Of a stretch of 64,000 nt of DNA, positions 11,881-40,478 are shown in pieces. A program made the position numbers and the translations under genes. The notes under the pieces are model-generated. The model ran no database searches. It was not told where the DNA came from and saw nothing but the letters and a program-made list of their open reading frames with translations. Source of the stretch: Heliocidaris erythrogramma (taxonomy: Eukaryota > Echinodermata > Echinoidea > Camarodonta > Echinometridae). Where the stretch lies: the NCBI GenBank assembly GCA_025617745.1, contig CM046868.1, positions 19,720,615 through 19,784,614 of the forward strand, read 5' to 3'. Within the stretch, counting starts at the first letter, position 1. Each line of letters starts with the position of its first letter.

Positions 11881-13256
11881 CTAACCAGCAGAAGGTGTGT
11901 GGTTAGCAGTTGTCGGAACGGTTATAGGAGGTGGAGTGGTTTCTTCAGAGGAGATTGTTTTAGGAGTGGGAGAGGATGTTGGAGTTGATCCGGGAAGGGT
12001 AGTCACTACAGACGTGGTTACAGATTCCGGCTTTGGAGATTTATTACCGATTCCCACACCAAGACCAATAGCTAAACCAATGACTAAAATCATAACAATT
12101 GTCAAGGCTAGCAACCACTTTGGACATTCCTGAATCATGTCCACGACTCGTTCCACACAACCTCCGTCAGAAGCCGGCATGGGAGAGCTCGCAGCCTTCT
12201 CCACGAAGTTCTTCAAGGCACTCCAGTCTCTTTCCTGCAGCTCTACTGGCCCTTCCAGCTTGCCACACATGATTACAAGGCCAGCATTCATGAACGTTGT
12301 AGGTTGCCTGCCCTCAAAGATCCCTATCTCTGCCTCGTACTTGTCTTGTCTGTCCAAGCCCTTATCTTGCGGGAAGTCATGTGCTATCACACAGATTCTG
12401 TCATTGCCTGAGCAGATTCATAGGTGCAGAAATGTTTATGCAAGTCATTGATAAGAAAATGAAATAAATATCAAGATGCCACTCCTCCAAAGCAGCAATG
12501 TATTTCCCCCAATCTATTTACGTGTATGTATACAGTGATGTACATGTACATGACAAATAAGCAAAATAAGCTTTTCACAATATCTGCAGCTAAGCCCTTT
12601 TCTGAAAACACGTGCGTAAATATAATTCTATTTAAAAATGATAATTAGAGCAAACCCTGAATTTCCTCCATGTACAAAGAAATAAATGTTACAGATCTCA
12701 TCAAAGCTTTTTGCTGCCCACTTTTATTTTACGCAAATAAAGGTCTACTACATGTCCCCGTATGACATGGATACTCGACATGCTCCGGCCACAATTGTTA
12801 CAGGCTTTATTTCGTCAAAGTTTTGGGTAAGGGCTAAAACCTATGGCTAAAAACTGAGTTTTAAGTTAAATTTAGGTATAGTGTTTGGTACGGGTATTAA
12901 GTTAAGAATTCGGTTGGTGTAGGATAATGACCGCAGAGCAATTATCACCGAGCATGTGTCATACAGCCATGACGTGAACTTGTGAACAAACCTAAGATTT
13001 TGGCAGAGTAGGGCAAGAACTTGTCGTAGAGGGCGTCCATGACATCAGTGATGGCGAACCTTCTGTTGTTGATAGAGTGGCACAGTACCATGATGTTGAC
13101 ATCCTCGCCTTTGAACTTGAAATGATCGATGTCGTTATATGGCAATTCAAAGTACTGGACGTCCAGGGTCGGGTCACTGAACTTGGTGGGTAGGTCATCA
13201 ATGAATCCCTGTACGTTGATGACATTGGCAGACGTACATACACTGACCCTCACTAG
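11881..13256 (-). CDS. paralog 1: membrane-anchored alpha/beta protein with mucin-like C-tail (partial)
   Basis: I do not recognise the family. Two exons are supported by comparison with paralog 2: 13256-12992 and 12407-11881 (stop TAG). The intron, 12991-12408, runs GTTTGTTC to CTGCTCAG and is phase 1, falling in a Gly codon. A 3' splice site with a long C/T tract lies just upstream of 13256, so at least one 5' exon with the start codon is missing. The visible product is about 263 residues. Residues 1-180 look like alternating strands and helices: VSVCTSANV, DVNIMVLCHSI, ITDVMDALYDKFLP, RICVIAHDFPQD, ADLAIMCGK-like GLVIMCGKLEGP and LQERDW. A hydrophobic, Gly-rich membrane segment follows at about 186-209, then a 54-residue Ser/Thr/Pro-rich tail with one NHT glycosylation sequon. 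This suggests a surface protein with the globular domain inside and a mucin-like stub outside, but topology is inferred. Residues conserved with paralog 2 argue that both were constrained as protein. Confidence 0.72.
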
Positions 13257-13274
13257 CTGTTGATTAAACAGAGA

Positions 13275-13310
<36 letters not shown>

Positions 13311-13340
13311 GAGAGAGAGAGAGAGAGAGAGAGAAGTTTT
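13257..13340. repeat. poly-G and GA tract abutting the paralog 1 splice acceptor
   Basis: About 30 consecutive G, interrupted only at their edges, pass into a GA run. On the gene strand this is a CT/C tract directly before AATCAACAG, so it acts as an unusually long polypyrimidine tract for the 3' splice site. Its length is probably variable between individuals. Confidence 0.7.
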
Positions 13341-13344
13341 TTTA

Positions 13345-13677
13345 AAAGGTCTGTCACTCGACTGCAATCAATGGAACCAATTTTCCATGGGATTCAGATG
13401 GTTGGCGTTTCTAGTTGTGGTATGCTCCATAAACAAAATAACATCAATACACTACAGCAGGGGCGTCGGTCCGTTTTTTCGGATTGGAGGGGGGGGGGGG
13501 GGGATTGAAGTCTGATCGTGTAATTCCCTTTGTATTTCAGTGTTTTGAAGGTTTCACTTTCCGAGTTTTGCTTCATTTTTCCTTATTTTATTTCACACCT
13601 CCGGATTTGGGGGGGGGGGGGCAACATACCCCAATATTTTCATCTGGGGCAATTGTACCTTGAACAACTTAATGTCC
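13345..13677. other. paralog 1 upstream intron block and G-rich repeat remnant
   Basis: Around 13352-13407, words such as TCTGTCACTCGACTGCAATC, GGATTCA or GGGATTCAGA, and GGTTGGC are shared with the matching place beside paralog 2 (40532-40595). From about 13459 a GGGGCGTCGGTCCG word followed by G runs at 13490 and 13608 resembles one end of a hAT-like element, with no clear partner end. Confidence 0.5.
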
Positions 13678-13680
13678 CTG

Positions 13681-16367
13681 GCCCGTATTCTGAACTCCGG
13701 TTTAACTTAAACTCCAGTCTAAGTTAAACCAGAGTCTAACTAAACCAGACTTAGACTGCATGTCGGGTTTAACTCCATTTCTGTTTCGGAAAGTCCAGTT
13801 TAGTTACACTAGAGTCTAAGTCCAGTCTAAGTTAAACTGTGGTTTAGTTGCCATGGAGATGTAGTCTGCTGCTACTGCGCATGCCCAGTAGAGCTGAATT
13901 TATCTTCAAGAAGACTGAAATTTGCTTATTCCTTTCATTTTTAGGATGTTTAATCAAGAAATGTCATGAAATACTCTATACACAAATTAAAGGCATACCA
14001 TTTGGCACTTCATTTGTCATGATTAGCCTACTGGAGTTTTGTGGATCATAGTGAACGACTATTTAAGGTTAGGTTGGTCGGTTTATGCATGTATTACTAT
14101 ACGGATACCTAGTCCCAGGGAAGATATCGAACGCAGGCACTACGCCTCTGTATTCAGCTCCTTCTTCCATTTCAAAATGGCTGGATCACTAGCGTCGGCT
14201 GGGGGGGGGGGGGGGGGGAACCCGGCAAGAACCCCCCCCCCCCTTTTTTTTTTGCTTGTCGGATAATTATAGAGGAAAACATCTGATAACCACTGCCCCC
14301 ACTGAACAACTTTTTGAGGGCTGGCGAAAAAAAAAATCATGGTAGACTCTAGATCTAAAACTAAAGTTAGATCTACATGTATCCAACAATTAGGCCTGCA
14401 ATGTCCATCATGTGGGAGCAGAGCGGATGAAGGATTTTGTATTTTGAAAAGGGGCTCAATTAAGTAAAGTAATTGACACACAACAAAAAGTAAAACAAAA
14501 ACAAAAAGCTTCAGATTTGGGGGTTGATTTCAGGGAAATAAAAAAGTTTGATGACTTAGAGTTACGTCCGACAATTAAAGCAAAGCAAAAATGAAAAATA
14601 AAAAAATGGGGGGGGGGGGGTGTCCGCACCTCGAGAACCCCCACCTGCCACTGATTGGTGAGGCAAACGCATCACCGTCAGATTCAGAGCAAAAGGAACG
14701 GACCCAGGCTATAGACCTCTTTATAATTTATAGCCTGAGAGATTAGATATCAATTTTGTTATGAGGCACAGGGGCCATTTTGAAAACAACAAAACAAACA
14801 AAAAATAAGATATACCGTATCTAGATCTAGGCCTAGACTAGAGGTAATTAATTAAAAAAACAGTTAGAGCTAGACTTATACCCTATACAGTAGGCCTAGG
14901 CCTACTTTTAGACCAAAAAACAAACTTGTTCGTTTCATTTCATTGAAAAGTCAATACGGTTGTACACTTTACCGTGTAGGCCTGCCATATTTATGAAGGG
15001 CACATTTTCGGAGATAATGTAGTACGCAATTTGAATGCATGTAATCAAGAGTTAGGCCTAGCTAGATCTACTTCAGACATCTATAGATCTAGGCCTATGT
15101 CATTGATCTATAATAAAAAAGGGCACTGTGTTGCTTTAGAACCTGACGTTAGTTGCTATTAGCTGCTGCATGGCCTACAAAAATAATCTGGTGACAATGC
15201 ATTGCCAAGTTCCTGGACTAACTTTATTATTAATGTTTCTCCTTTTTCCAAGACAGCATCTCGACTCTAAATATACATAACGTCAGACATACTTTATAAA
15301 TGGCTTTAAACAGTAACATATTAAAACATTAAAACGATAACAAATTAAAATGATAACGAAGCTTTTCGATCTGCAACTCATCAGGTTATCACGCAGATAT
15401 GAACAAATAAACTACTTATACTGAAAGCTAAACTTTATAGTGAAAGTTGTAAAGACTAAACTACGTTTGAATATTAGTCTAAGACTAAGTCTACTGTACT
15501 AACTTATAGGCCTATATAGATTCTAAAAGTTAGACCCTATTTTAGTACGATCGAAGGTTGAACTTGAAGTAAGATATTGGCTATACTAGAGGTCGAGCAG
15601 GGACCAGGGTTGAATTTTAACGTTACGGTTAAATCTGAGCGAGTCAGCTGTCAAATTTTGAAATTGCAGGCGGAATTGCAATAATCTCTGGAGCTGAGCT
15701 CTTATTGATCTAGGCCTATCTGTTTTTCTAGCTTCGTTTAATTTTTTTTTCTGTAGCTGTAACCTCGGAACCCAACTTCCCAACAACAGTCAGCTCCGAC
15801 TGCCTAGCCTGGCTCAGCTAACTAGCACAGCACTGCATGGGATGAGATAAAAGGGTATCGGTCGCGTCGGCTGGGCCGGCCGGCCCGGCTCGGGTTAGGG
15901 TGTAAAGAGCTATGCTTGCTCGCGCGCGAGCGCGGAAGATTGTTGCAAAGTCAGTTCTGCGATAATGACAGCGCTTGTCATGAATACTGCCGGTAAACGT
16001 TAAATCTAACTACGATTCTAGATCCAGCTAAAAAGAAAAAGAAAAAGAAGATTTTCCTCTTTACGAAGGTAAATTTACCTTTCTCTAAGCTGGTGCCAAC
16101 AGACTTTAAAACCTTTCGTAATAACACTCTTCCGCCTCAGTTGCAAACATTACCCTGCGGTGGCCATGCATGAAGAAAAGTTAAACCGGACTTAAACTAC
16201 CCCTAGCTGCAGTCTAACTTTCTGTACAAAGTTAAACCACGCTTAGACCGGAGTTTAAGCTAAACCGGAGTTCAGAATGTGATTTTCTTAAACTCCGGTC
16301 TAAAGGGCAGATTTAAGCCACACTTAGACTCGAGTTTAAGTTAAACCGGAGTTCAGAATACGGGCCC
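13681..16367. mobile_element. 2.7-kb PIF/Harbinger-like element with subterminal repeats
   Basis: The ends are inverted: the left reads GCCCGTATTCTGAACTCCGG and the right, reverse complemented, reads GGGCCCGTATTCTGAACTCC. A CTG triplet flanks each side (13678-13680 and 16368-16370), consistent with the CWG targets used by some Harbinger families. Both terminal 200 bp are packed with short inverted words such as AGTCTAAGTTAAACC, GGTTTAGTT and AACCGGAGTTTAAG, likely transposase-binding sites. The interior has G/C runs near 14202 and 14608 and an AT-rich unique part with many GGCCTA words. No transposase is visible. The superfamily call is tentative; the inverted ends are clear. Confidence 0.7.
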
Positions 16368-16495
16368 CTGTATTTACTGAGGGGGACATGTTCATTATTC
16401 TAAGATTTGAATCAAGAGTCAAAGATTTTAGCCAATACAAATTATTATTTTTTTAAATTAATATAAAGTCAGACAGGTAATTTAGATCAGATTAA

Positions 16496-17648
16496 AGGGT
16501 AACTAAAATAGAAAATTAATTGCCCATTTTTCGTAGGCAGGAGTCATCAGGAGCCAAAAAATATCTATCACACACTTTTTTATGCATTCAGTCGTATTTC
16601 ATAATCATTTGAAAAGTACATTTTTGCTGATTTACACAGTCATAAGCCCCGCCCCTAAAAAACCATCGAAGCGACATCGTGATCACGTGATCTGTGACGT
16701 ACGAAAAGTAAAGGAAAATATTCCACCCACCTGTATACCGTGCATGCCCGCAGGCCTGGCAGGCCCAGCCCGGTACGGTGCCGAGCGCGAGCATGATATT
16801 CACCGCATCGACCATTTGCATTGCATATTTTCGTTTAATTCCTCACAATTTAATTCCTTATAATTCCTCGTTTAATTCCTCACAATAACGTTGATTTGGT
16901 GTATAGGTGTGGGCTTTAGCAAGACCCCTAAAGATGATTTAAGCCTACATCTTTTTCCTAAAGATGAAAATCTACGGAAATTGTAGGTCGAATTCCCCTT
17001 GCCACTCGAGCTTCTTTGCCGTCCGGATCTGATAAATCATCTGATAAATCAGAGTTCGTATCTGCATGGCTCAATAAAGTCCTCCAACTTGGAATCGCGG
17101 TCACTTTTCATCTCTCTATATAAGTTACTCGAATTCAGCCAAAATCTAATTCAGTACTACGGTAACTGTACTATGTAAAGCGAAGTAAAAAAAAAAAAGG
17201 CCCGTAAGTGAAATAAACAAAACAAAAGCGTTCACCAGTCGGCAAGCTCAGATGGATTAGAACAAGAGTTGTATTTTGTGGGCAAAAGTCTTTGCTGATC
17301 TTGTAGAAAATATATTGATAATGATTATTCACTCCTAAGATTCTATTGATTAATTTCCTTTTTTCATAAATTGTCCGTTGAACAGAGGGGTTGAATATCG
17401 CATTGTGTGTACAATGTTATATGCTGCAGCCTGCAGATCTTGTGCCTCTTACTCTTCATACGTCACTTGGGGTGTGACCTCAATCAGCCAATCAGCTCAC
17501 GAGTTTTAAAGAACGGTCCCAAAACCTCTACTTTTCCCCCTTGTTCGCCAAAACGGGACATAATTTGGGCAATCGATTGTCAGGTTCATGATTAGAAGGC
17601 AAAAATACATGGAAACAGCACCCATTTTCTCTCTAATTTAGTCAACCT
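16496..17648. mobile_element. TTAA-flanked MITE, 1.15 kb
   Basis: It lies between TTAA at 16492-16495 and TTAA at 17649-17652. The ends AGGGTAACTAAAATAGA and, inverted from the right, AGGTTGACTAAATTAGAGA are related, and the arms meet again further in at a GTGACGTAYGAA word (about 16695 and, inverted, 17455). It belongs with the other AGG-ended TTAA elements in this window. The interior contains CCAATCAG and CGCCC words but no coding frame I can support. Confidence 0.65.
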
Positions 17649-17652
17649 TTAA

Positions 17653-17772
17653 ATCTCCGGACCAGACAATGTACATGTTCGGAACTTAGTGGAACTCGAG
17701 TGGATTACATTTTCTTGACCACTTATTACCCACGCCGATGAAATCGGCAAGGTTATGTAAAGGGCTCCGTAT

Positions 17773-17805
<33 letters not shown>

Positions 17806-19350
17806 TACAAGATAACAAGAGAACGGGTGAACGGATTTGCACCAAATTTTCAGGGAATGTTCAGAAAGTGACAGGAAAGAATCGATTAGATTTTGGTGAT
17901 GATTGGTTGACCCTGCACATTCTATGTGACCTTGAAGTTTTGACCCTGTAGTAAAGTATAGGAACTTCAGTTCACTTTATTGTGACAGGAAAGAAACTAG
18001 AAAGATTGATGACCCCAAACTTCGCCTGCAGATGCAGAAATATTTTGGCCAATCAAAACACTCATTACTTCGTCTCACCAAAAGTCTATTTCAGGTTTAT
18101 GAATTTTAGAAGACTTTTAGACCCATTATTTGCCATATTTCACTTCAAATCCGTACGAGCCTGCAATGAATATTCAAAGCTAGCTAGCTATCGCGCGCGA
18201 AATTCATTTAGATTCAGGCTACCCTAGCCCTACGGCTTCTCCTCTATTTCTTATCTTCTGTGCATTTCTGTTTATTTTCCCCGGTTCTTTCCACTTTGTT
18301 GTGGAAGTTTTTGTGATTTATTTTATCCTGGTGGACGTGTAGTACGTGATTTTAATTGTTTTCGGTGAAAATCTGGTGAGTTTGTTCGACGTGAGTGAGT
18401 CTATCGCACTCGCGAGCGTTCGCGTGTGTTGATCTGAGTGAGTGGGCTGTGTAGCTAGCTGTACGTACATAACTATACACAGCGCTGTCGCGAAGTGACG
18501 GCGATCTGGTCGGGCTAGGGCCGGAGTACATAACCCCAGGGAGTGCAGTGCAGTGCCTGGCTGACTGTAGTAGGATTGAACTTTTTTTCTTTGGGTTATA
18601 ACGGTCCTGTCATTTGAGATTTGAGTTAGTTTATAACTCATTTATGTCTGTTTGAGTGGATTTCGTAGTTGTAAAATATATACAAAAACTGTATTTTTTT
18701 TTTAATTTGTGTGGATTTGCAAAATTTGGTGGCTGATCGAGGTTCGCCGAATACATGCACGCCAAGTATCCACTTTGACTTTGTTGATGGGTGGTGACTG
18801 AGCTGAGTGAGTAGGCTCTGTGCCTCGCATGCATGTCATTTTGAAGTCGAGATCCAACTTGTTTTGTCGTCATATTTATTTTATCCAAGCCCGATGAAAA
18901 AAAAAAACAACCCCAATTGCAATGTAATTTAAAGATAGAACATGAATACATTTACTAACACTTACATGACTGAACACTGAATACAAATTGCTAACATTTT
19001 TTTCCTCACCACGCCACGCTCTCTGACATGTCTAATCAATTACTTTTAGGGGAGAGATGTTTCAATACTAACATATCTTTTTCAGAAGAATTTTTTCAAG
19101 GGTGGGGACACACAAAGCTATGACCTGGATATGGCAAAATTTATTGGGGGGGGGGGGGTAGATGTGCCTCTTGTTATCCCCTTTGAATGGCTACTGCTTA
19201 CAAAAATAATCGCAACAAAACAAAACCTATATTGGGTTTTTTATACACGACAGGGGAACCAACCAGTAAAAATATATCTGCAGTTTCAAGAATAATCGCT
19301 CCGCTAAGGCGTGGGTCTGCCGCCTTTGACGGCCTTTCTAGTTAGTTATG
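17653..19350. repeat. dispersed repeat beginning CCCACGCCGATGAAATCGGC
   Basis: From about 17731 the sequence CCCACGCCGATGAAATCGGC leads into a T run at 17777-17804 and a stretch mentioning ACCAAATTTTCAGG. Near 19310-19340 a related GC-rich word (GGTCTGCCGCCTTTGACGGCC) occurs, possibly marking the far side. The internal 18.2-18.9 kb is richer in GC with GAGTGAGT words. I find no transposase or host exon. The boundary calls are weak. Confidence 0.4.
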
Positions 19351-19635
19351 TTCACACGTAGTACATAGCATCGATGCTATCTAAGTTTCGAAACTATTTC
19401 CAGTACGTTCAGATAGGCCTTGATCGATCACCCATGCACTCGTGACTATTCTCTGCAAAAACAATAATTACTGCGCCACACAGAGTGACCCGACAATTAT
19501 TTATTCGCCAGACCTTCAAAATTCGCTGGTGGGGGGGGGGGGGGGGTTATGGGGGTCCACTTTCCCTCCATAATTCACAGACGAGCAAAAAAAAAAAAAA
19601 AAAAAAAAAAAACCCTGGATCCGCCACTGACATTA
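19351..19635. repeat. hAT-like terminal fragment with G and A runs
   Basis: A G run near 19531-19546 and an A run near 19589-19612 precede CCTGGATCCGCCACTG at about 19614-19629, which inverted is CAGTGGCGGATCCAGG, a hAT-type terminus. The opposite end was not found. Confidence 0.5.
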
Positions 19636-19639
19636 CATT

Positions 19640-20740
19640 ACAGCACCAGATGAAACACTGACAGAATGATAATAGAAAAAAACTAGGGAAGAGGGTACAT
19701 CACATGAATACATACATTACATTATATTATAGCACCACATGAAACAGACATAATTATAATAGTTGCGAGTGAAGATAGCAGCGATTGCGCTCACATTACA
19801 AATAGTCACAAGCGCGGTGGGTGGTCTACCGCAAAGCGTCGATGCTGATATAGCGAAATACATAGAGACAAATAGACTGTTTTCTGACCAACAAAAGTAA
19901 GGCATACGGCATAACTCGTCAACTGCTGAACTGATTCAGTCGTTTCTAAGTGGGAGAATCAAACACGAAAAAAATGGTTTCAATTGTGTTTCATCCAACG
20001 TCATTAGCGGCCTCCCCCAGGGCAGTATTTCATGACCGACCTGTTTCCTGCTGTACGTTAATGATTTGCCTGACATCATTCAGAATATACATGTAACTGT
20101 CAAACTTCTTGCAGACTATAGCAAGATGTATTCACATGTCCAAAATAGAAATGCTAGTGAATAGTTGGCCAGAAATAACTCCCACTATGACCATGGTTGC
20201 ACTTATATGAGTGACGTATTCCACAAGCAAGTAACAAAATTGATCGTGGGGATACATTTGGTAATACATTTAAAACGTCTTTCTCTCATCACGTTGACAC
20301 AGTGTCTACTGATGCAAATTACAAGCTTGGAAATATTAAACATACGTTTACTACCATTTATGAGAATGGTTTTCTGCAACTGTACAAGTCAATAGTCAGA
20401 TCGTCACTAGAATACGGTTAACCTGTGTGGCATCTCTGCATGAGGATCTATACTTCTTTAAACCCTCAGATATCTCCAGTATGAGTCCCGGCTCAAACAA
20501 CTTATCCTCTCTTCACTGGCTTTCAAACATCAGAGAACAGATTAGAAACAGGTGCACACAATTCTGCACAGAGTAGAATATTTTTAACCATAAACTTCTT
20601 TGACTTTTCATCTGGCTGTCGAACAAGTTGACATAATTTGACATCCATTTAAAATACTGAAGAAACATGGAAGGTATATATTGAGGCAATGCTCTTTTTC
20701 ACAAAGAGTGCATGATATCTGATGTAGTAGAGAGGCCATG
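19640..20740 (+). mobile_element. LINE reverse-transcriptase remnant (CR1/Jockey group)
   Basis: Conceptual translation around 19960-20130 gives ISGLPQGSIS, then LLYVNDLPDII and VKLLADYSKMYS, the RT palm with a degenerate ADD box. Further on, YKLGNIKHTFT and LYKSIVRSSLEYG near 20325-20420 match the RT thumb and C-terminal region of Jockey/CR1-group LINEs. Several stops and frameshifts are present. A matching fragment lies at 40800-40900 in the duplicated unit, so this insertion predates the segmental duplication. Confidence 0.7.
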
Positions 20741-20879
20741 ACTGAATATATCCAAGACAAATCTGAAGAAAATAAAAAATAAGGCCAAAATTAATAATTC
20801 AACTGTCCATGTTCTTCAACAAATGCACATATTTTTTCACACAGAAATTAATTTATCTTCATGGTTGCAGGGGGATAAA

Positions 20880-20960: not shown

Positions 20961-21111
20961 TAAGATGCGTGGATGTAGAGGTGGTCTTAAGATACAACGC
21001 AACATTCCGGTGCATGTAACTTCATGTTGCAGACCGAGAAAATCACACCATAGAAAGTTACCTTATGACTATGAGTATAGGAACTTAAATCATATTCGTA
21101 GAGTGAGTTCT

Positions 21112-21450
21112 ACTAAATAATAATAATAATAATAATAATAATACATGGTATTTCGAAAAGCACCATTATCCATTTTAGTTAAATGCTCAAGGCGCTTCAG
21201 ATCAATGAATTGAAAAGAAGTTGACGAGACAAGAAGTGGGATGTCTGTGTTCAATAAGCACCATTGAATAAATATGTCTTTAGGTTGCCCTTGAAGGAGC
21301 TCAAAGAATTTGAAAGTTTGATAGTATTAGGAAGAGCGTTCCACAGGACGGGCCCCGCATGAGCAAAGGCCCGATCCCCCACTTTTTCCTAGACAATGGA
21401 ACCTGCAGCAAATTTGTATCAGATGAGCGTAGGGTACGTGAAGGAACGTA
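21112..21450 (-). repeat. SINE/LINE-tail repeat ending in an ATT run, minus orientation
   Basis: On the minus strand it ends in a run of ATT trinucleotides preceded by a GGTGCTTTTCGAAATACCATG stretch. Inside, AAATATGTCTTTAGGTTGCC and GAGCGTTCCACAGGACGGGC words resemble the repeats at 43260-43520 and 32650-32830. It overlaps the first codons of the LINE frame that follows, so one of the two junctions is an insertion boundary. Confidence 0.55.
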
Positions 21451-22382
21451 TTTATGTAACAAATCCAAATTATATTTTGGGGCCATTACCATTACCAACC
21501 ATTCTACTCTCTAATGTACGCTCTATGAAAAAGAAGATTGATGATCTGAACAGTACACTATCTGTGAATAATTGTGATATTGCTGTCATCACTGAAACTT
21601 GGCTTCACGATAACATACCTTCCAATTCACTTGGTATACCTTGCTATGACCTATTCCGTAATGACCATATTGGGCGTGTAGGTGGAGGTGTTGCAGCATA
21701 CATTCGTTCTGATATCAAAATTGAAAGACTTGAGTTTCTTCATGATGTAGATTTTGAGATTCTCTGGTTAAGAATGACTCTATCAAAAAAACAAACCATC
21801 TTCATGGCTGTTGTGTACTGTCCCCCTCAGGTTGGAAGAGACTTTGAACAGCGCATTATTAATAAGCTGATCTTCTCTTTTGACATTCTTAAAACACAAC
21901 ACCCTGTTAGTAACTTTATCATCTTGGGTGACTTCAATGATGTAGATACTTCACCACTTTGCAATGACCTCTTACTGAAACAAATGGTTACGCTACCCAC
22001 AAGAGGTGATAACATCCTTGACAAAGTTTTTACTGATATATCTGACTATTACCATGTTCCTATTGTGATTAACCCAATTTCCAACAGTGATCACAAGACA
22101 GTGATTGTCAGAGCTTGTGCTTCCATTCCGAAGGAGACTTCAAGAGAAATCGCTTTCAGACCCTTCCGGCAGTCCAGTGTCCGCGCTTTTGGAGAAGAGA
22201 TCACCTCTGCCTGCTGGAGCCACCTCTTAGAACATCCAAGCGTGAACAGAATGGCTGCTGATCTTCAGGAATCTCTCCCTGAGCTATACCATCTTCATTT
22301 TCCTGTTATCTCTGTAACACGAAAAGCAGATGATAAACCTTGGATCACCAATCGTATTTTGTCGCTGATCAAAGAAAGGTAA
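21396..22382 (+). CDS. LINE apurinic-like endonuclease ORF, truncated before RT
   Basis: The frame spans 328 codons; the first 25 or so lie in an adjoining repeat and probably are not LINE protein. From PTILLSNVRSM onward it follows the exonuclease-endonuclease-phosphatase fold of LINEs: a SNVRS strand, ITETWL with the catalytic Glu, GGGVAAYIRSDI, the MAVVYCPP strand, LGDFNDVD with the Asp/Asn pair, and SNSDHKTVIV ending in the catalytic Asp-His. These are the residues expected of an active nicking endonuclease. After about residue 230 comes the linker containing PWITNRILSLIKER, which normally precedes the RT. The frame stops there, and residual linker sequence (ARYKSLRNQVKRE) continues in another frame to about 22490. 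The enzyme would nick target DNA but lacks its polymerase. Confidence 0.82.
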   Translation: MEPAANLYQMSVGYVKERIYVTNPNYILGPLPLPTILLSNVRSMKKKIDDLNSTLSVNNCDIAVITETWLHDNIPSNSLGIPCYDLFRNDHIGRVGGGVAAYIRSDIKIERLEFLHDVDFEILWLRMTLSKKQTIFMAVVYCPPQVGRDFEQRIINKLIFSFDILKTQHPVSNFIILGDFNDVDTSPLCNDLLLKQMVTLPTRGDNILDKVFTDISDYYHVPIVINPISNSDHKTVIVRACASIPKETSREIAFRPFRQSSVRAFGEEITSACWSHLLEHPSVNRMAADLQESLPELYHLHFPVISVTRKADDKPWITNRILSLIKER

Positions 22383-28235: not shown

Positions 28236-28239
28236 TTAT

Positions 28240-29130: not shown

Positions 29131-30013
29131 CTGAACTACAAAAGAAACGTCGCACATGTATGTATTAAAAAAATTTTTTTTACAATGAAACATATTCTTT
29201 ATTCAAGAGTGAAAACTGAGAAAATGTTTTGCTTTGTTTTGATTAACAAGTACAGATGTGCAATAACGACTCTCGTCGTTGATAGCGCCAGTTCTGACGT
29301 TGTTGGTCCCACAGGAGACGTTCCCGACGATGTCGAACGGTGAGGATAGGGCCCCGAGCAGGACGCCGACAAGACAAGTTGAAGCTTCTCAGCCGACGAC
29401 GAACAGTTGCTACAGAAATTGGTCTGTTGTGTGTGCCAATAGTCTGTAGAGCCGATTCTGTTGCTCTGCGGAAGCGATCCTGCAAGTGGTCCCGGTGAAG
29501 ATGGCGATCTTGACGTGCTGTTGTCACCCTGGGACGACCACTGCGCTGACGATCGTTGGTGCCGTTGGTTGCATTATATTGCTCCCGCATTCTCTCTACT
29601 GTCCGAACGCTGCATTGAAGTCGTTGACAATGACTCTAGGACGTTGGCCAGCATGAAGACGTCCGATGGCTTGTTCCCTCTGGTTTCGAGTCAGACGTGG
29701 CATGGTGACAGCGCTCAGGAAACGAATGACAGGATGAAGTTTTTGGGTCCCTTTTAAACCCACTGGATAGAGGATGTGCATGTGCATCGTGCTTTTCAAA
29801 AAGCTGCGCTCGAGTGCACTACCATGTTCACGGAAAGGATATGAGTTTTAATCTTACACAGAAATCACATTTTTTTATGATGATGTGTTATGGACGGTCA
29901 ATGCCATATCTGTGATGTTAAAAAAGCATAAAATGTGATTTTACGTATCAAATTCCAATATCATGTGTAAAAGATATCAATTTGAAAAGTGCGACGTTTC
30001 TTTTGTAGTTCAG
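29131..30013 (-). mobile_element. internally deleted Tc1/mariner element
   Basis: The 25-bp ends at 29131-29155 and 29989-30013 are perfect inverted repeats, starting CTGAACTACAAAAG and running to GTCGCAC. TA-rich sequence (TATATA) lies outside both, consistent with TA target sites. The element is 883 bp, about half the size of a complete Tc1 element, and lacks the catalytic half of the transposase gene. Confidence 0.9.
29243..29700 (-). pseudogene. Tc1-like transposase, N-terminal DNA-binding half only
   Basis: The product starts at MPRLTRNQREQAIGRLHAGQ (ATG near 29700), a typical Tc1 helix-turn-helix. A single frame change near 29595 separates NDFNAAFGQ from VERMREQYNATNGTNDR. The second helix-turn-helix and linker follow with the GRPRVTT and RQDRHLHRDHL segments, then RPISVATVRRRLR and RHRRERLLWDQQ. 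It ends at about 155 residues, just where the first catalytic Asp of the DDE domain should occur. With no catalytic domain it cannot transpose, although it might still bind the intact inverted ends. Confidence 0.88.
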
Positions 30014-31160: not shown

Positions 31161-32063
31161 AGGAGAATTAACCTCAAACAATAAAGACGATAGTGATCAA
31201 AGGTGTTATTTATTCCCACTTGTTAGACTATATGGCTTCGCGTCAAAATATACGAGATCGATACGAATCAAGATTTTCTGAGCAAAATTTATCATCTGCT
31301 AGCAATATGTATCGTCTGCTAGCAATACATGGGGGCTGCCATTTTTTTATGTGTACAAGAAGATTTTCTTAATCCAAATGCCCAATTGCCTTTTTCAAAA
31401 TTAAAAACCCATTTGAGATTAAAAATATAGAATAGATATGTCAATTTATTTTTAAACTGAAGATTTCCTTATATATTTCTGTTGAAAATCGATATTCGCT
31501 TAATATAAATCTATTTTCTAGATACTGTGACGCAATGGACGGAGCAAATTAATTCAAATTTTATGAATGCTTCTTCCCTGAGCATCTATAGCGGCAAACT
31601 ATGCATTCACCTGCTTTCGGATAATGGACTTCAAAAGTCAGAATGCATGCTGCATATATTATGTTCTGCTCTGTTTGGCAAACCCAAGAAAATAGATTTT
31701 TGTTAAGCAAAACCAGACAATTTAAAAGTATCATTATAAAGATTTAATTTTTATAAATCATGTAAACACCCACTTTATATTTTTCGTCACATATGGGATT
31801 TTAGGTAATGAAGAAAATCAATTTAGGTCTTGGATTCAAAATATCTTCCTGACCGGAACATTTTTCAATGGTTCATGTACAAATCCAAATCAGCAAGAAA
31901 ATGGCAGCCCCCATGTAAATGAGTAGGAGACGATACCGGGTGTTGGAATATCTTTATTTATACCCTTTTCTAATATCTTATTAGAAAATGATTTAGGCCA
32001 ATAAGTAGGAATATATTACACCTTTCAATATAAGTAAATTTGTACTCAGGGGTTAATTCTCCT
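31161..32063. mobile_element. TTAA-flanked MITE, 903 bp
   Basis: The perfect inverted ends AGGAGAATTAACC and GGTTAATTCTCCT lie between TTAA (31157-31160) and TTAA (32064-32067). A second inverted match further in, ATGGGGGCTGCCATTTT near 31330 and AAAATGGCAGCCCCCAT near 31898, shows extended arms. No coding capacity is visible. Confidence 0.85.
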
Positions 32064-32107
32064 TTAATATAATACTGTAGTGCATAACATAAACTGAATA
32101 CAATAAT

Positions 32108-32585
32108 AATTTAACGATGTTTTTCCATAGATATGGGCACACAATCGAATACCAATAAGTAAATTATATGATGCACAAAATTAATATTGACCTAAGTGAT
32201 GTTGAAAACAGTTGGACATGTTTAAAAGCAATATATATTACATGTCCAGAAACCTATATAACTTAATCACGATTGGGTCGTCAAATAATATTAAATTCAT
32301 AAAGCATCATTACGAGAAGCGAATTACTGATAAGAGAGAATTGATAAGTGAGTTGATGTAGAAGGACAATTATTGCCTCAACCCACAAGAAAACTAAATT
32401 GTGAAAGTAAAGTGAAAGTGCAAGACGGTGTAGAAACACAAGAGAATGAAGAGAAGGAGGATGGAGGAAGGAAGAAAGTGTAAGAATGTGTGTCTGTGTG
32501 TGAGAAGAAGGGTGAGAGAGGGCAGAAAAGGGGCGAAAAGAGGTAAGACAGAGAAGAGAGGAGATTGATATAGAGAGATAGAGAA
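32108..32585. repeat. 480-bp direct duplication, copy 2
   Basis: This is the counterpart of 30180-30660, with small indels. It runs into a GA/G run (32580-32635). Confidence 0.85.
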
Positions 32586-33590
32586 AGAGTGAGGGAAGAG
32601 ATATAGAGAGAGAGAGAGGGGGGGGGGAGAAAGAGAGAGGTGGGTCCTGCTAGCTCAGTTTGAATTCATTGCATATTTTTGAAGAAGATGTTTAACTTGT
32701 TTTTTAAACAGTTTAGAATTAGGGAGTTGATTATATCGCTACTAAGTGATTTCCAATATTTCGGGCCGTAGAAAGAGACGGTTTTGTGTGTGCCATTACC
32801 ATTGGCACGTGCATAATTTTCTTTTAACCAGAAATTTGTCCTTTATTCTGAAAATCCAAGCGATATACGTTAATAATACTTTCAAGAATTAGAATGAAAT
32901 TATTTTCTATTCAATTATGTTGTTTTAGATATTGAATAAAATAATTTTATTTAAGATACACACAATTTTTAATTATTATCATGGACATACGGGCACAATT
33001 TCGCGAAGGGGACTAACGCCTTTTGCCATTTTGTAGTTTCACAATCTTTGGGGGCAAGCGAAAATGTTGGCACTTTTTGTAATTTCATCATCAAAATTAC
33101 ATATTCGGGAACTTCGATGCCCAAATATGAGGACATACATTTGGACATCTTGCTGCCTGAATATAGGCGATTGTTGCAGCGTACGCCGTATAGTGTAATT
33201 TTGATTATCACTAGACGCAAGCAAAGTACAATTTAAAGTAAAGTATATCTTCTCATGTTTGATCTTGATTACAGATTTTAAAAAAGTACAAGAGGCCATG
33301 ACAGTCATTCTTGTGATATGGATTTCTCATATACTACAAATAGTTTTGCATGCTTTAAAATTAACTAGACAATTTATTAAAAGGGCAAATGAAATTTCAA
33401 GTCATTCTGCTTTGAACAGAGTGAATACTTGATTGTTTTCTTTTCTTAGAAATAAAGGATGACTTATTTCATCCAATATAAATACCAGATGTAGCTGACT
33501 TGACCAGTGAATAAGTATCTAGAATTATTTATAAGAAATCACATAAATTGATGTAGGCCTATCGATATTTAACAAATGGTGTTTTTTAAT
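32586..33590. other. GA run, retroelement-like fragment, then unannotated sequence
   Basis: A GA and G run ends near 32640. Between 32650 and 32830, words such as ATGTTTAACTTGTTTTTTAA and AATATTTCGGGCCG recall the repeat at 21250-21360, probably a decayed LINE 3' region. From 32830 to 33590 I see nothing I can name. Confidence 0.45.
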
Positions 33591-33635
33591 TGCGGCTTAA
33601 AGGGGAACGAAAGGCAACAAACATTAGCCTATAAT

Positions 33636-33829
33636 CAGTGGCGTATCCAGGGGGCGCAACAGGCGCCCCCCCCCCCCTCTTGGCCGTCGTAAAAAAAATA
33701 GCACTATATATATAGCACTATTTTGCATCTCAGCCCGTCTTCAGAAGCAAAAATTTTTCCCCCATGACGGCGATCAATAATTCCTGGCGCCCCCCCCCCC
33801 CCTATTGGGAAATCCTGGATACGCCGCTG
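33636..33829. mobile_element. 194-bp hAT-like MITE nested in the foldback left arm
   Basis: CAGTGGCGTATCCAGG and, inverted from the right, CAGCGGCGTATCCAGG are its ends. CTATAAT lies directly outside both (33629-33635 and 33830-33836). C runs at about 33664-33677 and 33789-33801 lie inside each end. It breaks the outer unique part of the foldback arm, which has no such insert on the right. Confidence 0.85.
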
Positions 33830-34068
33830 CTATAATCATGTATATTATTGTCAGCATATTATAAATATCTTGAAATTACTCCTATTTGACTATTTATGAA
33901 GGAGAACAGTGTCTCAAAAAGTTTCAGTTTCCTTGCTAGACATTATCCCATGGGGCTGCCATTTTCTCTACAAAATAATGTCAGAGCAGTTGCTATTTGT
34001 GAGATACCCACTGACCTATAGACTAGCTACAGTGACACTCATGATCACCTGTGGAATGCAGGGGTAAC

Positions 34069-34797
34069 CTCGCTAGTCATAAGGACCGCTAGTCATAAGG
34101 ATCAGTGGCTCATAAGGACCGCTAGTCATAACGTGTAATTTCCTATACCTGTAGGGTCGCTATTCATAAAGCGAAAAGGGGTCACTATTCATAAACTCAT
34201 AAGGAGCATTATTCATAAGGATTGCTATTCATAATATGAGAAGAGGGTCGCTATTCATAATCGAAGAAAAGGGTCATTACTCATAAGGGCCGCTATTCAT
34301 AATAAGTCATAAGGGTCGCTATACATAATACAGATACAGGGTCGCTATTCATAATACCAAATCGGGTCGTTAATCATAAGGGTCGCTATTCATAAAGGTC
34401 AATATTCATAAGGGTCGCTATTCATAAAGGTCGCTATTCATAAGGGTCGCTATTCATAATCGGAGAAGAGGGTCGCTATTCATAATCAGAGAAGAGGGTC
34501 GCTATTCATAATCACAGAAGAGGGTCGCTATTCATAATCAGAGAAGAGGGTCGCTATTCATAATCGAAGAAGAGGGTCGCTATTCATAATCAGAGAAGAG
34601 GGTCGCTATTCATAATCAAAGAAGAGGGTCGCTATTCATAATCACAGAAGAGGGTCGCTATTCATAATCGAAGTAGAGGGTCGCTATTCATAATCACAGA
34701 AGAGGGTCGCTATTCATAATCGAAGATGAGGGTCGCTAATCATAATCAAAGAAGAGGGTCGCTATTCATAATCACGAAAGAGGGGCGCTGTTCACAA
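34069..34797 (+). repeat. 27-bp satellite array, left arm
   Basis: About 20 units in the main block of the form GGTCGCTATTCATAATC plus a variable GAGAAGAG spacer, preceded by looser units CGCTAGTCATAAGGAC. Inner units are nearly identical to each other, and units degenerate outward, suggesting recent expansion from the core side. Confidence 0.92.
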
Positions 34798-35640
34798 TCG
34801 AAGAATAGGTTAGGGTTAGGATTATTTGTCAAATATTATAATATGATTTTCATTGTTCAATGAACACTCAAATATGAAAGAACAAAAATAATAATATTGG
34901 ATGGGATCTAGACACCCCACGGCTGTGTCGAGCCAATATGGGGACGGGCGATGAAACAAATACATCCCTTAAAAACAGGCGAGAGCGAAAAAGCGTGAGG
35001 AAGCGGAGGAAGAGAACGATAAAAGCTACGAAATTTGCGTCAGTATTCGCGCTTCCCGTGGGGAGGGGGAAGTAATTCCCCATCCATGCATCCACCCCTG
35101 ATACATGCAGTGCAGCATTGCGTGGGTGTCGAACTAACTTTCCGCCTAAAAGGAGGTGCTAAATGTACGAGCCTTTATCTTTCTCTCAAATTTGCTACAA
35201 AACGTCTGAGGGACCCCCCCCCCCCCCCCCTCTCCATGCACCCACCCCTGTTACATACAGTGCAGTATTGCGACGAGCCATTATCTTTATCTCAGATTTG
35301 CTATAAAACGTCAGAGCTTTCGCACGGGAGGGGGAAAACCATATAGTTACATACCCCTAACAACTCTATGGCACGCTTCGCGGGCTCACAAACGCCCCAT
35401 ATTGAAAAATCCTGGCTACGCCTGTGTCACCGCCCCCCCCCCCCCCACCATCAGTCCGATCACGTTGCGCTATTCTACCCATCTTGTTTCGGTACAAGCA
35501 CATAGTACTGACAATTTTCGTCAAAGCAATTCATAAATGGCATAGTCTGTGTGCGGGTGGCGGGGGGGGGGGGGGGGGAGGGTGCTGTAGTAGGTGTTGC
35601 CACCAGGTGTTGTTCTATCATGTCCATAATCCTCAGAGAT
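34798..35640. repeat. core of foldback element: assorted repeats and C/G runs
   Basis: A repeat of the 25049-25530 family occupies 35040-35420 (CACCCCTGATACATGCAG, GTGCAGTATTGCG words), ending CCTGGCTACGCCTG. C runs lie at about 35214-35230 and 35433-35447, and a G run at 35562-35578. No gene is visible. Confidence 0.6.
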
Positions 35641-36520
35641 AGGCGAGATAGCTCAGAGGTCGAACAGTGGCTTTGTAACTGAAGGATGCGTGTTTGAAAC
35701 CAGGATGCACTCATGTCCTTTGGTAAGGCATTAACCTCAAGTCCCTCGGAGAGGACTTAACCCTAATAGGCCCGGGGGCGGATTCCCCCCCCCCCTCGAC
35801 GTTTCGCGTAATATGTTCGCATTGCGAAAAGCAGTCACCACGCCGCTTCACTACTTTTTTCTTTCAAGTCTTGCGCAACTTTTGAGACCAAATTTGTGAT
35901 GTCCGCGCGTGCGGTTCCGGAGTTACCCAACATTTCGTAAGTGCATGTCAGACCCAAAATTGTTCAAAAACGTGATTTCGTGTACAAATCCAATCCAAAT
36001 TGTGTTTCCAGCTAAAATTCATAAATGTTTCATTATTTTTACTTTTACTGTTTAAAAACAATTAATTTTATGTTGTTTAGGATTAAAATAGTGTCGCCGA
36101 CAAATTCCATCAAAAAACAATAAAAAACATAAGAAAAAAAAGGATTTTTACCGGTTTATTTGATCAGAATCTGACAAAGAGTCTCTATACCAAATATTAG
36201 CAATTAGCAATTAATTAGAGCAAATTAATTTTATGCATAAATTAGCATAATTAATTAGTTATTAAATTTTTCGGAGAAATTGACTATACAGTTTTGTAGA
36301 TTACGTGGTCGGCGACGTGTGTGCCGATTTTCGTTGCGAATGCGCGGTGGACGGCCGAGATCTTAGGGGGCGGAATCAGCCCCCCACCCCCGGCTGTGAG
36401 ATGGGTCTAAAATAACCCGGCTCTGTTAGGGTTAAAGCCGTTGGTCCTGTGGTTGTTTACATACAACCAATATGCTTTACAGTATAAAGAAATGGGAATA
36501 AATTTGATAGAATTCAATTA
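35641..36520 (+). mobile_element. tRNA-headed SINE, split by a MITE
   Basis: The head at 35645-35705 has GAGATAGCTCAGAGG (A-box region) and GTGTTTGAAACCAG (weak B box). The body runs through CTTTGGTAAGGCATTAACCTC to GAGAGGAC, is interrupted at TTAA by the element 35761-36431, then resumes as AAGCCGTTGGTCCTGTGG to about 36520. It is a different family from the SINE at 9519-9893. Confidence 0.75.
35761..36431. mobile_element. 671-bp piggyBac-like MITE inserted at TTAA in the SINE
   Basis: Ends CCCTAATAGGCCCGGG and, inverted, CCCTAACAGAGCCGGG are flanked by TTAA on both sides (35757-35760 and 36432-36435). Removing the insert joins GAGAGGACTTAA to AGCCGTTGG, an uninterrupted SINE body, so the insertion is precise. 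The CCCTAA start with a TTAA target is the piggyBac signature. No transposase is present; the 671 bp are AT-rich in the middle and GC-rich at the ends. Confidence 0.88.
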
Positions 36521-37525
36521 AGATCAAACAAACATAGAAAATACATGATGCGCATGCCCTTGTAATGGGGGGGGGGGGGGGTGGGGGTGGCCTGTAGGAT
36601 TGGCTTGTATCATCCCCCCGCAATAATTCACCTTCAATAAATGACATGATCAAATAATATGATCAGGAGGAGGAGGATGACCACGATGATTATTATTCAT
36701 AGGATCACGACATGGTGATAATTTTTGTCATGATTTTTGTTAAGATTATGATAAGGAAGACCGAAATAAAGATTTCAAAGAATATAATGAAATAAATAAG
36801 TTAGTAATTACCATGAAAGAACATGCACTCAAATGCTCTGAGAGGTGATTTTTAACTCGGGGAAATTTGAAAGTCCCAACCGTGGGAGGGCATACTTCAT
36901 TCCCATCCATGCCCATAAACAGGGGCACACTGTAAAAACGGTAGATGCTAATGAATTGTACGTTACTAAAATCACGTATTATGAAAATATTACTATCCCA
37001 CCCCAAAATAAAAACGAAAACAAATTTTTCGCGGCAATTTCTAAGCCCCTATCCGGACAACTACCCCTACAACTAATCTCCAGGACAAATACCCCCTACG
37101 AGAATCCCACCCCCCCCCCCCCTCCCCGCCCAACTTTCCCCTCATCTCCCCCCAAATGGACGATTGCTGGAACTTGAGATAAAGGCTAAGGATTAGGTCT
37201 TCACAGGAGTTGAGAAACGGGAGGATCTGGATGATTCAGTGATTCATTTATTGTCATGCAACAAGGATACAAATTGTGTTACAATCTGATTTCCCAATTT
37301 CAAAAAATTGCACGTGATGGATAAGAATGAATACAGAAAAATATATTAATGCACATGTATCAAAAATATATTAACACATTGAGAAAGAGGCATGACAATA
37401 ATTATTCCATGATAAATCTACGTAAACAGTATACAAAAGGAAATAAGAGTACAAGCAAGAGGTCCATGTCTTGCAGAAAACCATGCAGAAACAAAGAAAC
37501 AAGAAGCTGGAAAAGGAAGGAAAGA

Positions 37526-37563
<38 letters not shown>

Positions 37564-37945
37564 GAAAAAGAAAAAAGAAAGAACGAAAAGGGTACATAAA
37601 TAGACAACCAGTACTTCCCCTAACTCTAAAATAGGTGTGGCAATGACACTCCAATATTCAAAACAAAGCACGTGTCTGCGTGTATGTGGGTGTGTAGATG
37701 GGGGGGGGGGGGGGGGTCCTCTCCTCCCACGTAGATGTATGGATTAGACATCGTTTTTTTAATTATTAAGGCACTGGCAAAGCGCCTTTCAAAGTGTGGG
37801 GAGTATTGATAAATATAGTTCACTTTTTTAGAAAATAGGGATATATTTGACAAAAACCGGAAATGCATTGTATAGAGCTTTCTTAAATACAATACCGTTG
37901 GGCCTTGGGTTGTCCTTCCTCCATATCCCTTTCTTATTTGATTTA
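36521..37945. other. core of foldback element, right half: simple repeats
   Basis: G runs occur near 36568 and 37701, a C run near 37110, and a GA run at 37531-37560. A tail-like stretch at 37230-37320 (GATTCATTTATTGTCATGCA) resembles other retroelement tails in the window. No gene is visible; frames here are compositional artefacts. Confidence 0.5.
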
Positions 37946-37949
37946 AATG

Positions 37950-38470
37950 ACAACCCTCTTCTGTGATTATGAACAGCGACCCTCTTTAGTGATTATGAAT
38001 AGCGACCCTCTTCTCCGATTATGAATAGCGACCCTCTTCTGTGATTATGAATAGCGACCCTCTTTTGTGATTATGAATAGCGACCCTCTTCTCCGATTAT
38101 GAATAGCGACCCTCTTATCCGATTATGAATAGCGACCCTCTTCTCCGATTATGAATAGCGACCCTCTTATGTTATTATGAATAGCGACCCTCTTCTTCGA
38201 TTATGAATAGCGACCCTTATGAATAGCGACCTTTATGAATAGCGACCCTATTTTCGTATTATGAATAGGGACCCTTATGATTAACGACCCTGATTTGGTA
38301 TTATGAATAGCGACCCTCTTTCCATATTATGAATAGCGATCCTTATGTCTTATTATGAATGGCGGTCCTTATGAATAATTACCCTTATGAATAGCAACCC
38401 TTATGTCTTATTATGAATAGCGGTCCTTATGAATAATTTTTTTATGAATAGCGGTCCTTATGACTAGCGA
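37950..38470 (-). repeat. 27-bp satellite array, right arm (inverted)
   Basis: Units GATTATGAATAGCGACC plus CTCTTCT spacers are the inverse of the left array at 34069-34797. They end at GACTAGCGAGCAGACC near 38462, where the unique outer arm begins. Confidence 0.92.
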
Positions 38471-39059
38471 GCAGACCCCGGAATGCATGACGCTTAATTT
38501 ACTCATAATACCATTTTTGTAGTCATGTACATTCAAATGAAGATAATCCCTTTTTATCCTGTCATATAACCTATTTGTGTCAAGATATTTGGTTCAGCTG
38601 TTTCTTTTGTTAAGCAGGATTTGGCATGCACAAGTTGTTGCTTGGTCAGACAAAGGTTTGTCAATTCTTCAAAGAAGTGACAAAGACCTACAACTGCTCT
38701 TAGATATCACCTGTGCAAGACAATGGGGGTACCGAGATGGCTGCCATTTTGCATTGGTGGCTTTAGTTGTACAATAACTATTCATTAAAATCATATCCAT
38801 TGTGTACATGTAAATGGCATCACTGTTTTTCAAAATGGCAGCCCCATGGGATAATATTTAGCAAGGAATCTGCAAACTTTAGAGAGATTGTTCTCCTTAC
38901 GGAGTAATCCAATAGGAGTATTTTCAAGGTGTTTTGAACAGGCTGACAATTTTCCACATGATTATCAGCTGTTTGTTGAGTTTCATTTTCCTTTAAGTAA
39001 ACTTACAACAGATAAGTTTTGATAAATATTCAAACAACCTTAACACTGCAAACAAGATT

Positions 39060-39375
39060 AGTCCATTCCCGTAAAAATGAAACCCCTAGCAACTTTGGTC
39101 AGCAATGTACGCTAAGAAATGAAATTTTCAGGCAGCAATCCATGTAAAGAAATATAATTTTAGACAGCAATTACCGTCATGCCTGTAAAGAAGTAAAACT
39201 ATTTGGGAGCAATTACCGTAAAGAAATGTAAAACTTTAGTAATCAATTCCCCTATAACAGAAATGAAGCTTTAGGCAGCTATTCCCGTAAAAGAAATTAA
39301 ATATTAGGCAGCAATGCCGTAAAGAAATAACACTTCAGACAGCAATTCCCGTAAACTTAGTAAAGAAATGTGACT
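39060..39375. repeat. degenerate tandem repeat in the 3' flank of paralog 2
   Basis: Units around GGCAGCAATTCCCGTAAAG with variable AAATGAAACTTTA spacers, about nine copies, run up to the stop codon of the gene. The same arrangement is seen at 11586-11880. Confidence 0.75.
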
Positions 39376-40478
39376 TTAGTCATCTTTTATGGCATCTCTA
39401 AGTGCCTGATAGATGAAGCCAACAGCCATTAAAGCAACAAGTAGTAGGGACGGCCAATTCTCTTTGCAAAACATGAAGATTAAGTCCCGAAGATGCGGCA
39501 TGGGAGACTTCACAGCCTTCTGCAGAAATTTCTCCAAGGCATTCCAGTCTCTTTCCTGCAGCTCTACTGGCCCTTCCAGCTTGCCACACATGATAGCAAG
39601 ATCAGCCTTCTTGAACGTTGTAGGTTGCCTGCTTTTAAAGATTTCCATCTCTGCCCAATACGTCTCGGGTCTGTCCAAGCTCTTATCTTGTGGGAAGTCA
39701 TGGGCTATCACACAGATTCTGTCTTTCCCTGAGTATATTTTAAAGTGTAAAATAAATTCAATGTAATTTTCTATATCATGCATGGGTAGGCCTGTATAAT
39801 GTTTTACATGGATATGATAAATCAGCAAAATGAGCTTTTCACAACATCTGTACCTAAGCCTTTTTCTGAAAGATTGAATAAAATATAATTTTGATAAGGT
39901 TTGATGAAGGCAAACTCTGAATATTCTTATATACAAAGGAATACGTGTCACAAATCCCGTCATAGCCACTTGCTACTCAATTTGCATTCCCTTTTGACGT
40001 GAGTACTCCGACATGCTTGGGCCACATTTTGCTCCCGGTTTTATTCATCCTTTGGTTAGGGTTGAAACTGGGTTTTAGGCTATGTTTTTAGGTTACGATT
40101 AGGGTTAGGTGTAAGTAAGTTGGTGCGGTGTTAAAGTTAAGAATTCGGTTAGTGTATAGATTGTTGACCACAGAGCAATTGTCGCCGAGCATGCGTCATA
40201 CAACCATGACTTGAACTTGTGAACAAACCTAAGACCTTGGCAGATTGGGGCAAGAACTTGTCGTAGAGGGCGTCCATGACATCGGTGATGGCGAATCTTC
40301 TGTTGTAGATGGAGTGGCAAAGTATCATGATGTTGACATCCTTGCCAAGAAACCTGAAATCATCGACGTTATTGTATGGTAGTTCGTAGTACTGGAAGTC
40401 CCAGTTGGGAAACCTGTCGCTTAGCTTATCGATAAATCCCTGTACGTTGGTGACATTGGCGGACGTACAAACAGACAC
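39376..40478 (-). CDS. paralog 2: membrane-anchored alpha/beta protein, short tail (partial)
   Basis: I do not recognise the family. The exons are 40478-40229 and 39728-39376 (stop TAA). The intron, 40228-39729, runs GTTTGTTC to ATACTCAG and splits the same Gly codon as in paralog 1. An acceptor (CCTTTGAAG) precedes 40478, so the start codon is on an upstream exon not identified. The visible product is about 200 residues. Matches to paralog 1 include VSVCTSANV, DVNIMILCHSI, NRRFAITDVMDALYDKFLP, RICVIAHDFPQDK, RQPTTF and CGKLEGPVELQERDW. A single hydrophobic segment lies at about 175-192 with a short charged end (RDAIKDD), so the protein looks tail-anchored or single-pass with almost nothing beyond the membrane. 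The Ser/Thr/Pro tail of paralog 1 is absent. Strand-helix alternation suggests a Rossmann-like or TIR-like fold, unproven. Confidence 0.75.

Follow-up and report, generated by a model that had tools for sequence, protein, structure and literature searches.

An expanded sea urchin gene family encoding a predicted Rossmann-like domain, with a relative in Endozoicomonas elysicola

Two minus-strand genes in a 64,000-nucleotide stretch of the Heliocidaris erythrogramma genome (hereafter the window; contig CM046868.1, C16:19720615-19784614 of a 26-contig assembly of 1.06 Gb) belong, as tandem copies, to a large multigene family of animals. The family is real, expanded and conserved and has no match in the libraries searched. 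Both genes encode a common domain of ~165 residues, split within the same codon by a phase-1 intron, and an intronless homologue is present in the bacterium Endozoicomonas elysicola DSM 22380. Our preferred reading, which we hold at a probability of roughly 0.4, is that this is an expanded, cytosolic and often membrane-anchored signalling or enzyme domain of self/non-self defence or cell death, the bacterial copy of which probably came from an animal. A conserved, selected and lineage-expanded domain with active-site-like residues and no Pfam entry in the copy of that library searched points to a piece missing from the current picture of animal signalling.

The window copies and the family across the genome

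The first copy comprises exon A (12992..13256, minus strand; 88 codons plus one base), which encodes the first half of the domain in the order b1-a1-b2-b3-a2, as assigned through homology to an AlphaFold2 model, a phase-1 GT-AG intron of 584 bases (12408..12991), and exon B (11881..12407), in which the second domain half extends to ~12175 and is followed by a membrane segment, a tail and the stop codon. The second copy, on the same strand, consists of exon A with the first domain half at 40229..40478, a phase-1 GT-AG intron of 500 bases at 39729..40228, and exon B at 39376..39728, where the second domain half runs to ~39496 before a membrane segment, a short tail and the stop. These boundaries, put forward in an earlier reading of the letters (the original prediction), proved exact. 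A phase-0 acceptor lies upstream of each exon A (CAG/CTA and AAG/GTG, respectively), and the open frame upstream of the domain lacks a methionine codon in both copies; each gene must therefore have at least one further 5′ exon that carries the start codon. When the upstream stretches of paralogues were compared in search of this exon, the matches were to the domain itself, to recent close copies and to repeats, and no exon could be called.

By tblastn the two copies are 74% identical over 88 residues of exon A (expect value, E, 1e-41) and 73% identical over 77 residues of exon B (E 1e-36), a similarity far in excess of chance, and they are mutual closest relatives in a tree of 33 modules (support 99/97). 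Homology of their coding DNA stops after SPMP, just past the domain (12175 and 39496). The two introns share 69% identity along their whole length (342 of 494 aligned bases), and the donor word that both share, GTTTGTTC, to which the original prediction had drawn attention, is present in each because the introns descend from a common ancestor. Over the domain the ratio of non-synonymous to synonymous substitution rates (dN/dS) between the copies is 0.39 (bootstrap 95% interval 0.23-0.70; 161 codons), being 0.29 in exon A and 0.65 in exon B, and not the value near 1 that, together with an absence of spliced transcripts, had been named beforehand as counter-evidence. The description of the pair as two paralogous genes is borne out as far as paralogy goes, but a two-gene system gives way to a family spread over many places in the genome.

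A search of the assembly with exon B gave at least 33 matches and one with a divergent joined domain at least 101 half-matches, 18 of which contain internal stops, in at least some cases because the match extends beyond the exon into intron sequence. Combining both searches with the modules from fetched loci, with the A and B labels assigned by hand, yields at least 64 exon-A places and at least 52 exon-B places on contigs C1, C5, C9, C16, C20 and C21, so that the further copies anticipated by the original prediction do exist; at least 49 modules have an A and, no more than 4 kb further along the same strand, a B. The genome search scores best candidates only, and all of these counts are lower bounds. 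Clusters lie at 4.2, 53.2-53.4 and 78.05-78.50 Mb of C1, at 6.96-7.22 and 24.8-25.1 Mb of C5, at 13.56-13.80 Mb of C20 and at 11.1-11.3 Mb of C21.

Among the stretches fetched for close reading, 33 of 35 exons A were paired with 33 of 35 exons B, two of each being unpartnered there. All 33 paired modules carry the intron at the same glycine codon and in phase 1, in agreement with the spliced structure first proposed for the window; their acceptors are AG throughout and their donors are GT in 32 cases and GC in one, the donor of L016 being taken from its printed context. The halves are also separate in four further modules (on C20, C21, C5 and C9).

No in-frame stop was found in the 35 exons A and 35 exons B read. 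From 595 pairs per half, those with a synonymous divergence (dS) of 0.1-1.5 were treated as usable, which excluded 482 (A) and 425 (B) saturated pairs and 23 nearly identical pairs for each half; dN/dS exceeded 1 in none of the 90 usable exon-A pairs and none of the 147 usable exon-B pairs, with medians of 0.30 and 0.39. The copies read are working genes rather than decaying ones, and their domain as a whole is under purifying selection. These data bear on the view that the family is an expanded one of the ordinary kind, metabolic or structural in its role, or a set of partly decayed segmental-duplication copies, with no function in defence. Such a view draws on the near identity of several copies, the mirrored arrays at the end of C1, the unpartnered halves (64 A places against 49 complete modules) and the stops in 18 of the 101 half-matches, some of which arise from reading into introns; it is opposed by the purifying selection seen in all usable pairs, by the absence of stops from the 70 exons read and by the retention of an invariant pocket from animal to bacterium, and we regard it as unlikely.

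Within the family, the cluster at C1:78.05-78.50 Mb (L009, L010, L012-L022) has its members in mirrored orientation: the coordinates of two identical modules, 78112064(+) and 78480123(-), add up to nearly the same sum as those of the places at 78095755(-) and 78496468(+). This mirroring near the chromosome end points to either a large inverted duplication or an artefact of assembly.

Both window copies have a predicted C-terminal hydrophobic segment, as the term membrane-anchored in the original prediction had implied, at a threshold of mean hydropathy of at least 1.6 over 19 residues. That of copy 1 (12055..12111, minus strand) reaches 2.8 over 19 residues and is followed by a tail of 57 residues (11884..12054), 60% of which are Ser, Thr or Pro, and that of copy 2 (39400..39456, minus strand) has a modest 1.76 and ends 7 residues before the C-terminus. 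At least one such segment is present in 17 of the 22 exon-B frames of C1 and C16 and, within the exon read, in none of the 13 of C5. A Ser/Thr/Pro-rich tail after the segment occurs in copy 1, alone of the window pair, and at C1:4.18 Mb (55%); seven of the other nine single-segment members stop within 8 residues of the segment, resembling tail-anchored proteins. The membrane segments and tails of the window copies differ, and their C-terminal parts cannot be aligned with confidence; these parts also vary among close paralogues of the C1 78-Mb group, and this end of the gene therefore changes fast.

At the other end, all upstream contexts read closely allow a phase-0 acceptor ahead of the domain; these are the contexts of both window copies, of two genes at C1 4.2 Mb, and of C1:53.24, C1:78.11, C1:78.13 and C1:66.9. 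In the C1 66.9/78-Mb group, six of 13 rows have an ATG directly after this acceptor, a dozen codons before strand 1, and four have one some codons later. The six paralogues with the adjacent ATG suggest that translation can start at this point, giving a protein that has no signal peptide. The placement of the domain on the inner side of a membrane, as originally proposed, is compatible with these six, which fall short of proving it. From their sequences, many members probably have a membrane-tethered domain, and the domain is probably cytosolic.

An intronless homologue in Endozoicomonas elysicola

Scanning of 84,980 prokaryote species genomes with an 18-row alignment (A2, drawn from 18 of the 33 modules) returned six stretches with the pattern, among them one relative, in E. 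elysicola; the scan detects genes that keep the pattern, and more distant bacterial relatives could escape it. A first prokaryote scan with a two-row alignment (A1) had given no relative. The homologue is an intronless open reading frame of 259 residues (L051:4842-5621) and is 40% identical to the spliced window protein over 141 residues (pairwise, E 1e-27). Its frame reads without interruption through ALYNKFLPVAARILGKENVGVIVHDF, exactly at the position of the animal intron; since an intronless homologue crosses the junction that splicing is predicted to create, the bacterial gene provides independent support for that junction, that of copy 1 included. At 259 residues the protein is also a small version of the family suited to biochemistry.

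Around the gene, which sits within a scaffold of 5.57 Mb, the reading frames look bacterial as judged by reading, and contamination is therefore unlikely. The homologue was absent from 11 other congeners and, in a sample of the order, from 292 other genomes; a phylum sample of 398 genomes gave two matches including that of E. elysicola, the other being weak (E 4.5e-4 for one genome, 63 positions, one internal stop) and taken as chance. GC content at third codon positions (GC3) is 0.30 in the E. elysicola gene, 0.44-0.53 in four neighbours and 0.36-0.37 in the two flanking reading frames. Those large low-GC3 frames (L051:18-1526(-) and L051:5932-9603(-)) may be other host-interaction genes.

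The simplest reading is that E. elysicola probably gained the gene by horizontal transfer from an animal, and an intronless copy in a bacterium associated with marine animals points to the host-microbe interface. A precedent is described in PMC11521996, according to which Endozoicomonadaceae acquired inhibitors of apoptosis from animal hosts. The two cases have in common an animal-type gene in an Endozoicomonas genome associated with marine animals and a patchy distribution, whereas the protein families are different.

Fold, conserved pocket and comparison with known systems

None of the libraries searched placed the family, as the original prediction had said of its two genes. Pfam returned names at chance level only (DUF5380, E 0.05-0.08; B277, E 0.29) and, for the E. 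elysicola protein, DUF5729 (E 0.024) and two others, all under the cut-offs; NCBIfam and PADLOC, queried with copy 2 only, gave nothing, PDB sequence searches nothing better than E 0.6, and phage and plasmid collections and viral-contig scans no match. The family was not found in the literature, which was searched by text and not by sequence, so that its absence from print stays unproven. The label undescribed is in keeping with the library searches, which fall short of proof.

Structure prediction, which the original prediction had proposed, was made with AlphaFold2 and shows a Rossmann-like core modelled with confidence (a predicted local distance difference test score, pLDDT, of at least 90 for 117 of 259 residues) in the order b-a-b-b-a / b-a-b-a. 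Numbered by the spliced L012 domain, Cys53, His54, Ser55, Thr64, Tyr71, His92, Asp93 and Gln123 are invariant in the bacterium and in every one of 37 animal rows, of which 35 are distinct, and Leu32, Pro33, Asn58, Arg59, Leu75, Gly83, Val89 and Phe127 are conserved in 36 of the 37 and in the bacterium. The signature CHS-x2-NR-x4-T ... Y ... HD ... Q, combined with the phase-1 intron at the glycine before strand 4, is present in both window copies, and one C21 row carries an extra residue in its first stretch. In the predicted model the Cys-His-Ser closes strand 3 and the His-Asp stands at the end of strand 4. Active sites of Rossmann-like folds lie along this edge of the sheet, and in the model these residues are placed like an active site. 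A pocket is preferred over a dead scaffold because the invariant residues end strands 3 and 4 at this edge; that the pocket belongs to an enzyme is what we infer from it.

The best structural matches of the model are GTPases of the Rag, IRGQ and Rho types, in line with the idea of a small GTPase of the Rag/Gtr, IRGQ or Rho-like kind that degenerated through loss of the P-loop, switch I and strand 2 and today serves as a membrane scaffold without enzymatic activity. If true, such a quasi-GTPase scaffold would reveal one way for a G-domain to become something different. In the rows of alignments A2 and A7 the P-loop GxxxxGK[ST] was absent after strand 1, where the loop reads CTSAxxxNVxGF or variants of it; the models listed for 18 members, with E allowed to reach 10, include none of the Ras/Rho type, and hhalign comparison was not significant. 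Unlike Rag/Gtr GTPases and the quasi-GTPase IRGQ, which belong to the P-loop GTPase superfamily, the family has no P-loop, no NKxD motif and no detectable sequence relation, and it has its own invariant Cys-His-Ser/His-Asp set and often a C-terminal membrane segment. We consider descent from a small GTPase improbable.

TIR and SEFIR domains are similar in size and in the order of strands and helices, have expanded by lineage in invertebrates and are often linked to membranes. A divergent membrane TIR or SEFIR domain, acting as an adaptor or a NAD-cleaving enzyme, is quite unlikely, and somewhat more so than a degenerate GTPase. TIR ranks only 46th among the structural matches, behind dozens of GTPases and three response regulators, and Pfam lists neither a TIR nor a SEFIR model for the members. 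The profile-profile comparison that the original prediction had called for found no relation to TIR, hhalign against four TIR rows staying at shuffle level (34 of 100 shuffles as high). No glutamate is found among the columns conserved in at least 90% of 37 rows, in contrast to the catalytic Glu of TIR. The family also differs from TIR and SEFIR in its set of conserved residues and in carrying the domain N-terminal to a C-terminal hydrophobic segment. Of the two folds first suggested, Rossmann-like or TIR-like, the former agrees with the predicted core and the latter has a middling structural match and no sequence support.

Reading of the residue pattern also gave rise to the idea of a pseudo-caspase, a caspase fold that has lost its catalytic Cys, since by eye the CHS is positioned like the His of caspase SHG and GKDRICVIAHDF resembles GKPKLFIIQACRG. 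In the caspase position of that Cys, at the end of strand 4, all 37 rows hold the invariant His-Asp, as against the SHG, QACRG dyad. The 68 genomic matches listed for PF00656, best candidates only, include none at family places, PF00656 is not listed for 18 members, and hhalign against three caspases stayed at shuffle level (13 of 100 in local mode; 56 of 60 and 50 of 60 in global mode). The idea, which we now regard as highly improbable, was dropped on the hhalign result and on the position of the PF00656 matches off the family places. The caspase set of this genome itself seems expanded, with at least 68 exon-level matches to PF00656, many clustered and some with internal stops, for example at C13:20.26-20.78 Mb and on C4, C7, C11 and C19.

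GTPases, TIR domains and caspases are each set apart from the family by at least one tested defining feature, which concerns membership and not the way of working. A further comparison is offered by the expanded DEDD2/TRADD-N proteins of invertebrates, a lineage-specific expansion according to PMC8195603. These too have one domain that expanded in a lineage while flanking parts change; the domain of the present family differs in being of the alpha/beta Rossmann-like type.

Proposed role and surroundings of the window genes

The likeliest role of the family, judged by analogy, lies in innate immunity or cell death. In the mechanism that we propose, an N-terminal cytosolic Rossmann-like domain would be tethered to the membrane through the C-terminus in many members, members of the C5 clusters, with no hydrophobic segment in the exon read, being perhaps soluble, and swapping of the C-terminal part would set the location of the protein. 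The conserved polar pocket (Cys-His-Ser and His-Asp, with Asn-Arg, Thr, Tyr and Gln nearby) would bind or turn over a small ligand, possibly a nucleotide, and the family would serve self/non-self defence or cell-death signalling, as do TIR and other expanded Rossmann-type domains in invertebrates. The copy that E. elysicola probably took from an animal may interfere with this pathway. A bolder version, on the doubtful side, is that the roughly 50-60 genes encode an uncatalogued, often membrane-anchored enzyme domain of innate immunity or cell death, in which a small signal molecule is made or cleaved at the Cys-His-Ser/His-Asp pocket, and that the sea-slug Endozoicomonas captured an animal copy as a mimic or decoy. 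An immune enzyme of this kind would form a new class beside TIR, cGAS-type and caspase effectors.

Several observations weigh against the preferred reading. The immune role rests on analogy, drawn from the clustered expansion and the bacterial copy, and dN/dS values below 1 disfavour strong diversifying selection over the whole domain. The AlphaFold2 model includes a 94-residue insert derived from the intron and its most conserved loop has a pLDDT near 54, and the geometry of the pocket is therefore insecure; Foldseek against the PDB found nothing significant (best E 0.12). For the cytosolic, membrane-anchored arrangement, three members of the 13-row C1 66.9/78-Mb group lack a methionine at the acceptor site, the ATG of the six C1 paralogues could be internal, given a coding upstream exon, and the C-terminal hydrophobic stretch of the E. 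elysicola protein is below threshold (1.39). As to transfer from an animal, the tree gives no supported position for the bacterial row, which has a long branch (1.76), and it therefore leaves the direction undecided. As to the extent of the expansion, the C1 78-Mb cluster is partly mirrored and its size could be inflated by the assembly, and pseudogenes or decayed copies may be among the unfetched places.

Downstream of both window copies lie short repeats of the GGGAATTGCTG...AAATTTCATTTCTTTA type, at 11596-11810 and 39114-39355, with 68-79% mutual identity. A 200-base repeat, 77% identical, occurs on the same strand at 9616-9812, downstream of copy 1, and at 40595-40794, directly upstream of copy 2. 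Between the copies are a fragment of the endonuclease type resembling a long interspersed nuclear element (21393-22382, plus strand; PF03372, E 3e-10) and a Tc3-like transposase helix-turn-helix region (29246-29635, minus strand; PF01498, E 2e-8). The window further contains a gene for a Rhodopsin-family G-protein-coupled receptor in a single open frame (54320-55825, minus strand; PF00001, E 8e-66).

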